From the NCBI RefSeq assembly GCF_963678975.1, contig NC_089278.1:10071479-10135478 (forward strand): 64,000 nt of DNA. The letters are read 5' to 3'. The translations under genes were made by a program, and so were the position numbers. Origin of the DNA: Dysidea avara (lineage: Eukaryota > Porifera > Demospongiae > Dictyoceratida > Dysideidae). Shown here piece by piece: positions 6,201 through 64,000 of this stretch (its first letter is position 1; every line of letters begins with the position of its first letter). The notes under the pieces were generated by a model that saw only the letters and a program-made list of their open reading frames with translations, ran no database searches and was not told where the DNA came from.

Positions 6201-9200
6201 GAGTAATAGTGTATGTCACAGCGCAACAATTGATAAAGCTTGCATCATCTCTCAGGGAAGGATTTACAGAGGTACTTGAAAAGATCGATATACTCTAATA
6301 GAGCAGTCATGTATACTCTAATAGAACGTGCATTTAAATAATATCCTTATGTTAAGGAACTTCATTAGTGGAGTTTTTCAGACATTCTAACGTTTACTAA
6401 ATGCAAAACTGCGTTTGACTTTATACAGCTATAGCTTTGGTGTGCAGTGTTTAAAGATATAGAACTCCAGTAATTTATCACTTGGCATGCAAAATAAATC
6501 CATGCTATGCATATTTGTAGTTATAATGTTTTGATTGTAAGTCATTCCATTTGTATCAGTGGATTCATGGTTCCTATACTAGTGAGATAGCTATCACTTA
6601 TATGTGTCTATGTGTTATGCTGTCTGTTTCCACTAGGTAGCTTATCTATTTCATCCCAGGGGCACTTATATGCATTATAATTAATGTACTATTTTTTGCA
6701 TAAAATATAGCAATTTGCTGAATTTAGACTCATTTAAATATTCAAAGTCTGGAGGCTGTGCCCCCAGACTCCTGCTTGTGGTAACTCAATACTGCTGTTG
6801 GAATCCCCCTTCAAAAAAATCCTGGCTACACCCCTGCACTTAGTGGTGTAGGGGTTGCAGTGAGATTTGCTTGTATAGACTCAAGTGCCTTAGTTTATTG
6901 GGTGGCAATAGCTGTGTTTCACATAGCTGTCGGAGACTTTGCATTGTGTGTGTACTATTTGGAGACACATGTTATTGATCAAACTTGTTAAATCTGTATT
7001 TCCGAAACATATGTTGTTGCTTGTGTGGTTTCTTGTAGACTGTCTATCAAAATTACCAACGCATCACAATTCAGGAGAGTCCAGGAAAGGTGGCCGCTGG
7101 TCGTCTACCACGTTCAAAAGATGCCATCTTATTAGCCGATCTTGTGGACAGCTGCAGACCAGGGGATGAAATTGTGAGAAACATATTTGGTTAAAACATG
7201 AAATACTTTTGCTTTTCACAGGAATTGACTGGGGTGTACCATATCAACTATAGTGGGGCTTTGAATACTGCTAACGGTTTTCCTGTTTTTGCTACCGTGA
7301 TTCAGGCCAATCATATCTCCAGAAAAGATGTCAAGGCAGTAGTAGCTGCCCTGACTGATGAAGAAATTAAGAGTATTCACCAGCTAGCAAAAGATGAGAA
7401 GATTGGAGAGAGGGTAGGACATTGAGACACATCCAAGACATGCATCTAAAGATTTATTGTCAACAGATAATCTCTAGCATTGCTCCATCAGTTTATGGCC
7501 ATGAGGATATCAAACGTGCAATAGCTCTTTCTCTGTTTGGTGGAGAGGCTAAAGACCCAGGTTAATTTGTAATGTGTGCATGAGCTCAACCATGTACAGC
7601 AGTATTGTGTTTACCACAGGCCAGAAGCACAAAATCCGAGGGGACATCAATGTACTACTCTGTGGTGATCCAGGGACTGCCAAATCCCAATTTCTTAAGT
7701 ACACTGAAAAGATTGCGCCCCGCCCAGTTTACACAACAGGTACAGTTAACTACTCTTGAACTGTCGCTTGAATAACTGATAAATATTCAGGCCAAGGTGC
7801 TTCTGCAGTGGGTCTAACAGCTTATGTACAACGTAGTCCTGTCACAAAGGAATGGACTCTGGAAGCTGGAGCCCTTGTACTGGCTGACAAGGGAGTATGT
7901 TTGATTGATGAGTTTGATAAAGTATGTGTAGTTGGTTGACTTGTACCCACTGTGATGATTACAAATAGATGAATGATCAAGATCGCACTAGTATACATGA
8001 AGCTATGGAGCAACAGAGTATATCTGTGTCTAAAGCTGGTATTGTCACATCATTGCAGGTAAGTAGAAAATGTTTCCACTTTCACTGAGAACAATTTAGC
8101 CATCATGAAGAAAGCTTTCACAACTTTGTCATTTTTTGCTATTGTTTATTTCACCAAACATTTCTGGATTTACGCACATACTAACACACAAAACACAAGT
8201 ACTTGTGCATACTATAGTTAACGTGTGTATTATTTGTTCACTCAGGCAAGGTGTGCAGTTATTGCAGCATCCAATCCAATTGGTGGACGCTACGACCCTT
8301 CACTTACCTTCTCAGATAATGTTTGTTATTCATAACACTGCACATATCGTATTACAACTCATCAGGTTGATCTTACTGAACCTATCCTTTCCCGGTTTGA
8401 CATACTGTGTGTGGTCAGAGATATAATAGATCCTATTGAGGTGAGGATTTATCATTGTATTATGTAAAGTGATTTTATTGAGAGAATAGGATGAGCAACT
8501 AGCCAGATTTGTTGTGAGCAGTCACATGAAACACCATCCACAAGCTTCTCAGGAGGACCTCAATCTTCCAGTGAGTTCCATCTTGTTATAACTACTAGTA
8601 AAAAATGTTAATTTAAAAATGAAGTAGGGATCTATGCAATAAAAGTAGTTCATTTTTAAATTAACAATGTTTAAAATACTAGTTTACTTAGTTTTTGCTG
8701 TAGCACAGCTAGCTACAATGTAACTTATGACTGTTCTAATAGAATATCATGCATGACTGTTGTATTAGAGTGACTGTTGTATTAGAGTATAACTCGAAAG
8801 GTGCAGCTAGCTAGACCAATATGGGGTGAGGTCAGCTAGATTGTTAAGAGGTGTGGTCCCCATACTCTATCGCTATTAGTCCACCTAGATCTTTAATTGA
8901 TGGGCATGGTCGCAAATTAACCTATCGCAAACGGGATCTTAATTGTGAACTTTCAGATATCTAGCTAGTATATCACCAGGACTGAAGCGCTTCTGAAATC
9001 CAGCTCTGAAATAATTCTGTGGTGTCTATATATGTTGCTGAAAGAAAGTGTTGATACAGAAAATTAATGCCTCGATATGGTTTCGTTGGATGAAGAAGAA
9101 GACAAGCAGCCTGATTGAAGATAAGATAAAAGACAAGGTACAGAGGGCCTACACTCGTCAGAACCCAAAAAAAAAACACATCCCACTGGTGAGTTTGTTA

Positions 9201-63070: not shown

Positions 63071-64000
63071 GTAAGTACACCTACCACAACTTAAATTGAT
63101 AAAGAAAAGCATTTTATAGCTACAAGACTTAATATGTTGTTTTGATACATGACTATGGAATCAAGACACATGGTATTGAGTCATGTGACCAAGAAAGCCA
63201 GCACCACACCACACCCTGGGTATATTGACAGGAAGAAAGAAAACAGCTTTTTCATGCATGCATAGCTCCGTGGCCCCTTCTCCAATGCACACCATTTTTG
63301 CATTGTAGCTGTCCACCAGGAAGGGTAGGCCACACAGCAAATTTGATAAAATTCACACCAGCCATTTGCAAGATGTGGGTATTCAAAATCTTATTTTTCT
63401 TCTTAAGCCATGGGGGATTTGATTTCTTTTCACATGCTTTGTAAAAATTGTTATAAAACACAAATGCATATCTCGATTGCCTTGATCTTTGGCACAAATT
63501 AAGAGCATATAAAGGTGAATGCGCTTACTTAAATTTATTGTGAATCTGATGAATATCCAAGAAGTTGTGAGCATTTATTCATGTAAAAATTTATTATAGA
63601 GTTGCAAAGTTATAAAGCAAACACCTGTAAATCGTGGGATCAAGATACTCTAATAGAGCAGTCACTGCAGGGTAAAAAAGATACACAAAAAATTTACTTG
63701 AGTACTTCCATACCTAACACCCGCATCCTTAACCACTGAACTGCTGCTATCTTTGCTGATCACCTCACTTAATTTCTGCTTTATAAATGAAAATTTGTTC
63801 TGGTTTAAATCTGCTCTACCAATAGAAGTACTAGATTTTCTAGTTATGCACTTTATTAGAGTAGTACAATAATATTATCAAAATATTAAAGTAAAACTCT
63901 ACCAAAGGAAGTTCTAGATTGTTTTAGAACATTCTACATATGTTCTATTGGAAGTCCTTAAAATGTGTAATCTATTAGAGTATATTACAAGTGAACCATA
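63071..64000. other. HECT-B intron sequence to window end
   Basis: More than 900 bp without an exon. It includes TACTCTAATAGAGCAGTCA at 63646-63664 and partial copies near 63850 and 63970. The last HECT exons are expected just beyond the window. Confidence 0.6.

Follow-up and report, generated by a model that had tools for sequence, protein, structure and literature searches.

Su(Hw) sites in gypsy, where they lie in direct clusters, and CTCF sites in rodent B2 are transposon-linked insulator or architectural sites. To our knowledge, sponges are an animal group without CTCF. In Ac and Hermes, repeated subterminal motifs are bound by the transposase, and 8-base target duplications combined with terminal inverted repeats (TIRs) of CAGGG/TAGGG type are the mark of hAT MITEs. 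Highly conserved domains are common to different SINE families, and the V domain is also present in the MITE MER6 (PMC6887750). A transposon-linked, GC-rich loop motif of ctenophores is bound by CTEP1 and CTEP2 (PMC12221973).

The 19-bp motif TACTCTAATAGARCAGTCA from the sponge Dysidea avara shares features with each of these systems. Like the SINE V domains, it is a short conserved module spread by different transposon families, and MER6 provides a precedent for a MITE as carrier; unlike them, it has hAT-type MITEs as its recognised carriers, forms part of a module of only ~31 bp and often occurs as direct pairs; no SINE structure was noticed. With the ctenophore motif it has in common that it is a many-copy sequence motif linked with transposons, whereas it is AT-rich without CpG, its 161,000 copies are a very high number and it is known from sequence alone. 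Its direct clusters are comparable to those of gypsy. Modules common to transposon families and transposon-linked, lineage-specific motifs are already known. Literature searches on its string, sponge repeats, shared MITE modules and Dysidea avara repeats yielded, in the titles and abstract openings of the matches listed, no report of the motif.

The stretch analysed (64,000 nt, hereafter the window) is part of contig C7; the assembly comprises 108 contigs with 550,814,596 bases (550.8 Mb) in total, and C1-C15 each measure 14-65 Mb. With up to 3 mismatches allowed, the two strands of the window together yielded 28 matches to the 19-mer, including 9 exact ones (Table 1); in 100 shuffled versions the average was 0.03, and no version had more than 1. 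The more than twenty occurrences reported in an initial annotation are thereby borne out. The coordinates given there were correct but for one: in the first pair, the second copy begins at 6314 rather than 6313. Its weak forms were recovered in the 708 and 54200 regions, whereas those near 17900 and 57262 exceeded 3 mismatches, the former belonging in degraded form to a repeat that is also present in another stretch (L001). Genome-wide, the exact 19-mer was found 50,229 times, with the strands equally represented (25,017 and 25,212), and its reversed pattern not once. At up to 3 mismatches, 161,269 copies were counted (80,326 and 80,943 by strand; on average ~1 per 3.4 kb) versus 355 for the reversed pattern (186 and 169). 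A chance origin was rejected on account of the window shuffles and the reversed-pattern controls, and a single tandem satellite on account of the dispersal of the copies.

Table 1. Motif copies and motif-carrying repeats in the window.
Feature	Position	Strand	Basis or remark
Motif copy, 3 mismatches	711..729	+	pattern match
Motif copy, 3 mismatches	4634..4652	+	pattern match
Old dispersed repeat, carrying the 6291/6314 pair internally	6068..6839	+	~80% identity between copies; ends not recognised
Direct pair, exact and 3 mismatches, period 23, 5' extension AAAAGATCGATA	6291..6332	+	pattern match
Three copies in the same direction (periods 17, 26), in repeat ~8600-9270	8728..8789	-	
Single copy, 1 mismatch	15549..15567	+	pattern match
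Single exact copy	24528..24546	+	pattern match
Copy with degraded second copy 17 bp on	25090..25125	+	
Exact single copy	27047..27065	-	surroundings match one other genome place
Copy, 1 mismatch	27246..27264	-	pattern match
Direct pair, period 17	27331..27366	-	
Exact copy, GATCGA upstream	27775..27793	-	
Copy, 3 mismatches	37997..38015	-	pattern match
Single copy, 1 mismatch, probably intronic	40530..40548	-	pattern match
Single copy, 1 mismatch	42161..42179	+	pattern match
Direct pair, period 21	52700..52739	+	
Copy, 3 mismatches	54201..54219	+	pattern match
Four direct copies, mainly 17-bp period, in second copy of the 8600-9270 repeat	56437..56515	+	
hAT-like MITE, CAGGGCCGCCC group, holding the 59009/59036 pair	58815..59152	-	ends read by eye
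Direct pair of exact copies with spacer of the GATCTAAA family, period 27	59009..59054	-	
Single exact copy, GATCAAGA upstream	63646..63664	+	

The anatomy of the motif was derived from 80 copies in 238 kb, made up of the window, fifteen stretches of 10 kb taken without selection and 8 loci containing an exact match, so that 8 of the 24 sources of the profile had been picked by the motif itself. A 22-position block, ANA followed by TACTCTAATAGARCAGTCA, showed high information, which fell to near background just outside either side; it was often extended to ~31 bp as AAAAGATCGAKATACTCTAATAGARCAGTCA. Position 13 was split evenly between A and G (40:40) and positions 11 and 16 were variable. Since the other mismatches were fairly even, no clear tolerance profile emerged. 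Numbers of copies with 0 to 4 mismatches (17, 18, 13, 15 and 12) formed a smooth tail. A stretch close to AAAAGATCGANA (at least 7 of 12 letters, background rate 1.3%) preceded 7 of 17 first copies; among 26 singles it was likewise present upstream of 7, and among 16 last copies upstream of 1.

Same-direction pairing, as claimed in the initial annotation, was evident in 214 kb of unselected sequence (the window plus the 15 stretches of 10 kb), where 15 of 44 clusters held 2-4 copies and each cluster ran in one direction. Genome-wide, the 17-mer core formed 4,496 direct pairs (with overlapping array members counted more than once), 1,062 convergent pairs and 4 divergent ones when gaps of 0-30 bp were allowed. 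Among the 100 direct-pair places listed of the 4,496, the spacers GAAA, CTTA, GATCTAAATA, GGATCTGGATA and AAGATCCAAATA recurred. For the 178 exact sites in the first 1.85 Mb of C1, 12 pairs within 400 bp ran in the same direction, 8 were convergent and none was divergent; for neighbours 1-8 kb apart the respective numbers were 38, 15 and 23. When all pairs were considered, the bin of 6.4-12.8 kb held 54 same versus 32 opposite orientations, a bias that other bins lacked. Motif pairs in this region were in excess at short range only, and their long-range spacing looked random.

Complete hAT-like MITEs surrounded the motif in 15 of 20 fetched loci, comprising 13 of 16 loci selected by a recurrent direct-pair spacer and 2 of 4 selected by a convergent pair; these loci were the first listed places on C1, with young copies over-represented, and the search, for an 8-bp duplication (at most 1 mismatch) adjoining 12-bp inverted ends (at most 3 mismatches), covered length 8 only, without a random control. 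It yielded no complete MITE at L080, L083, L090, L091 and L094. Duplications were exact in 14 of the 15 MITE loci and had one mismatch in the other, and the 12-bp terminal inverted repeats had 0-3 mismatches. Because L075-L078 have common flanks and a common duplication, they were taken as one insertion, which leaves at least 12 independent insertions. In their 8-bp target duplications, CAGGG/TAGGG-type TIRs and size (175-448 bp), the carriers were like MITEs of the hAT superfamily. By their ends they were grouped as CAGGGCCRCCCA (L075-L079, L081, L082), CATAGGCGGTGG/CAGGGGCGGTGG (L089) and TAGG(G/C)A-type (L084-L088, L092, L093). The MITE read by eye at 58815-59152 ends in TAGGGCCGCCCAG and GGGCGGGCCCTG, with TGTGTGTG on each side; as TGTGTGTG is of low complexity (GT repeats), this duplication is not decisive.

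Unlike the sequences that define hAT MITEs, the motif is internal, is common to several groups and defines no single family. No intact MITE could be recognised at 43 of the 44 clusters from unselected sequence. The first copy begins 78-198 bp from the upstream end of the carrier, and in non-palindromic carriers the module lies on one side only, sometimes nearer the middle. This internal position in the carriers examined also spoke against the earlier suggestion that the motif is what a repeat family targets or grew from. TAGG MITEs had only 25-77 bp around the motif in common with the CAGGG and CATAGG types, and in comparisons with L092 and L093 the best common stretch was often 31-34 bp at 90-97% identity, that is, the module itself (e.g., L081/L093, L089/L092 and L084/L093). 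These alignments substantiated the claim that the motif occurs inside unrelated elements, in the sense of several MITE groups with different TIRs. If it were just the end of one ordinary transposon, flanks should align over hundreds of bases; they did so within families, but the motif was internal and belonged to several families, and the flanks of two of four single copies searched matched nowhere else in the genome.

A role of the motif as the TIR end of one transposon or MITE was rejected, as 63 strong copies had no excess of convergent partners (at most 5 mismatches, within 500 bp): 6 were found, versus 11 in the divergent control. Of the latter, 5 lay within 50 bp, and several represented the palindromic overlap of the motif with itself. 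Convergent pairs, which had at first resembled TIRs, turned out to be element middles in the four loci fetched (of 1,062), palindromic in L091/L092. There, the two arms of the element put the motifs face to face mid-element, an arrangement that suggests how convergent pairs may arise.

The intact MITE signature was present at 1 of 44 unselected clusters, compared with a mean of 0.15 at random positions; this is a lower bound, since the signature test requires an exact, non-simple duplication and thereby dropped the 59-kb element. With only 1 of 44 unselected clusters in an intact MITE, spread by MITEs is shown for the selected copies only.

The motif was also encountered in other records. A scan of 84,980 prokaryote genomes with the 17-mer returned 15 stretches, two of them in one metagenome-assembled genome (MAG), SP12ARB1, and a viral collection returned 6; by our own estimate, chance can explain these numbers. 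The extended unit was absent from the viral contigs, and a viral contig with two copies (L029), which by eye had phage-like open frames, was set aside as chance. Only SP12ARB1 stood out. In this MAG (JACOMT01), contigs C94, C106 and C176 hold the unit; besides the two from the scan, a closer look at the MAG revealed one more contig, at 1 mismatch. The site on this additional contig reads AAAAAGATTGATA followed by TACTCTAATAGGACAGTCA, so that the 5' extension is common to SP12ARB1 and the genome of the window. SP12ARB1, listed with 57.2% GC, is a bacterial MAG whose source was the sponge Lamellodysidea herbacea (PMC7313196). Its motif sites lie in low-GC, poorly coding stretches. In the portions read, GC content shifts along two of the three contigs, C94 and C176, which look chimeric; a long bacterial-type open frame lies in the high-GC portion of C94. 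The low-GC stretches are probably host sponge DNA. Beyond ~31-46 bp at the motif, the SP12ARB1 sites had no match in the compared portion (<0.1%) of the window's genome.

The explanation that we rate highest, at a little under an even chance, is that a MITE-spread module of ~31 bp, with the motif as its core, acts at the DNA level as a putative sequence-specific protein-binding site. Among the options raised in the initial annotation (mobile mini-element, repeat-family target or seed, protein-binding site) this one fitted best, as a reading drawn from sequence. The module AAAAGATCGAKATACTCTAATAGARCAGTCA, of which same-direction duplicates are frequent, is carried internally by several hAT-type MITE families with different TIRs, and the 161,000 copies would have arisen at least partly by hitchhiking on MITEs, as shown for selected recurrent pairs; the remaining copies would be older, with carriers past recognition. 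The module would have stayed unchanged while carrier bodies turned over; its pairs have several different spacers. It would be recognised by a DNA-binding protein, for which a host factor is a more probable candidate than a hAT transposase. Binding would aid the carrier through open chromatin, boundary or promoter activity, and copies could thereby become potential regulatory or architectural sites. Counted in favour were the sharp edges of the 22-bp block, near-identity across TIR groups, the complete MITEs at 15 of 20 selected loci, varied spacers, strand parity and the occurrence in SP12ARB1 with the 5' extension, although that DNA may stem from the same species or a close relative; the smooth mismatch tail, as in neutral decay, the random long-range spacing and the single intact MITE signature among 44 unselected clusters counted against. 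A unit of ~31 bp kept in ~160,000 copies across transposon groups that otherwise align little is unusual at such short length.

Since its decay looks smooth, a functionless passenger is a serious rival, although we consider it doubtful. The module would then derive from an ancestral MITE or have moved from one MITE to another through recombination or nested insertion, and would decay neutrally. Apart from the smooth tail, the near-even mismatches outside the three polymorphic positions and the random long-range spacing are consistent with such a passenger, as is the likeness of the CAGGG and CATAGG groups over up to 201 bp at 70%, which indicates that part of the sharing is ordinary descent. 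The short alignments of TAGG elements with both these groups and the pairs with several different spacers argue against it. Comparisons of the motif with its flanks bear on both sides. In the 772-bp repeat at 6068-6839 (1,466 first-look candidates, 40 scored; 30 copies used from the 40 best-scoring), the first motif had 1.1% versus 5.8% mismatch overall and was the second least diverged of 533 windows across the 30 copies; the second motif was not unusually conserved (0.956). In a genome search, the surroundings of 27047 matched one other place (C1:58.33 Mb) at 76% with an identical motif, which was thus already in the ancestor of this two-copy repeat. The first 772-bp motif and the two-copy repeat therefore show extra conservation that a passenger does not predict, whereas in the 8.7k/56.4k repeat pair the motif was kept no better than its flanks. 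Pooled repeat pairs gave an identity of 0.90 for the motif and 0.84 for the flanks over 14 rows, all of which were counted, although two (0.58 and 0.68) look misregistered and two locus pairs appear twice. Constraint on the motif beyond its flanks is no more than suggested, and the initial description of it as far more conserved than nearby DNA applies to the first motif of the 772-bp repeat and to the two-copy repeat, but not to the 8.7k/56.4k pair or the second 772-bp motif. If unbound, the module would be a clean example of module sharing among MITEs.

A more specific form of the binding-site reading, which we regard as unlikely, is that the module is the site of a lineage-specific, zinc-finger-type architectural protein that recognises a long motif, that hAT MITEs flooded the genome with paired sites and that intronic singles could serve as chromatin anchors or boundaries.

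By analogy with the subterminal motifs of Ac and Hermes, the module could instead be a cis-element of transposition, bound by the hAT transposases that mobilise these MITEs. The carriers' resemblance to hAT MITEs, the facing arms of palindromic carriers and the short-range predominance of convergent over divergent pairs are in line with this proposal, which is nevertheless rather improbable. A hAT element at L032:6553-9251, with an exact 8-bp duplication (CATGTCTG), contains a 607-aa, possibly intact open frame related to the Hermes transposase (E about 6e-14 to 7e-13, best 5.9e-14). This sole transposase-coding hAT element seen is without the motif, of which a triple lies outside it at L032 5982-6052, and its ends differ from those of the motif-carrying MITEs. 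Single copies in unique surroundings also argue against a cis-element. A host factor was preferred over a transposase as the putative binding partner of the module, which is one-sided in non-palindromic carriers, is found in more than one TIR group and is lacking in the L032 element.

That the 22-31-bp unit itself inserts at new places, the mobile mini-element of the initial annotation, appears very improbable. Sharp edges and occurrence both in different repeats and in unique surroundings would fit such an element: in genome searches, the 281-bp surroundings of 40530 and of 42161 had no other match. The surroundings of a further single copy, L030:3915, matched a diverged family whose start lies ~10-18 bp ahead of the motif. 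Flanking target duplications of 28 single copies (k = 4-8) were, however, not above those in shuffled sequence, which makes a mini-transposon unlikely; inverted partners of the 63 strong copies were not in excess over divergent ones, the motif was already in the ancestor of the two-copy repeat, and no empty site was seen among the repeats aligned. An RNA-level element acting in transcripts, for instance in introns, where several window copies apparently lie, is hardly credible, given that copies of opposite orientation share an apparent gene (40530 - / 42161 +; 56437 + / 59009 -), that the strands are balanced genome-wide and that the window gave no Rfam hit at gathering scores.

Several other features were recorded. 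On the minus strand of the window, positions 28236-29339 contain an arginine/creatine kinase frame, for which the best PDB match was the arginine kinase 4rf6; five motif copies lie at most 1.2 kb downstream on the same strand. Repeated exon-like blocks at 37500-46000 and 51600-63000 represent two tandem gene copies with NEDD4-like HECT sequence, a name assigned by eye. Outside the window, L040:3434-5149 contains frames matching HTH_Tnp_4 and DDE_Tnp_4, which we take to be a Harbinger-like transposase pair. About seven copies of the 21-bp tandem repeat TGCACCAACTACGTAGCTAGC, 96% alike, occupy 31940-32092 of the window. Two further window features look like foldback elements: both are near-perfect inverted repeats, one at 50649-50777 whose 60-bp arms (92%) are separated by 9 bp, the other at 18050-18331 with nested arms of 44 and 71 bp (100%).
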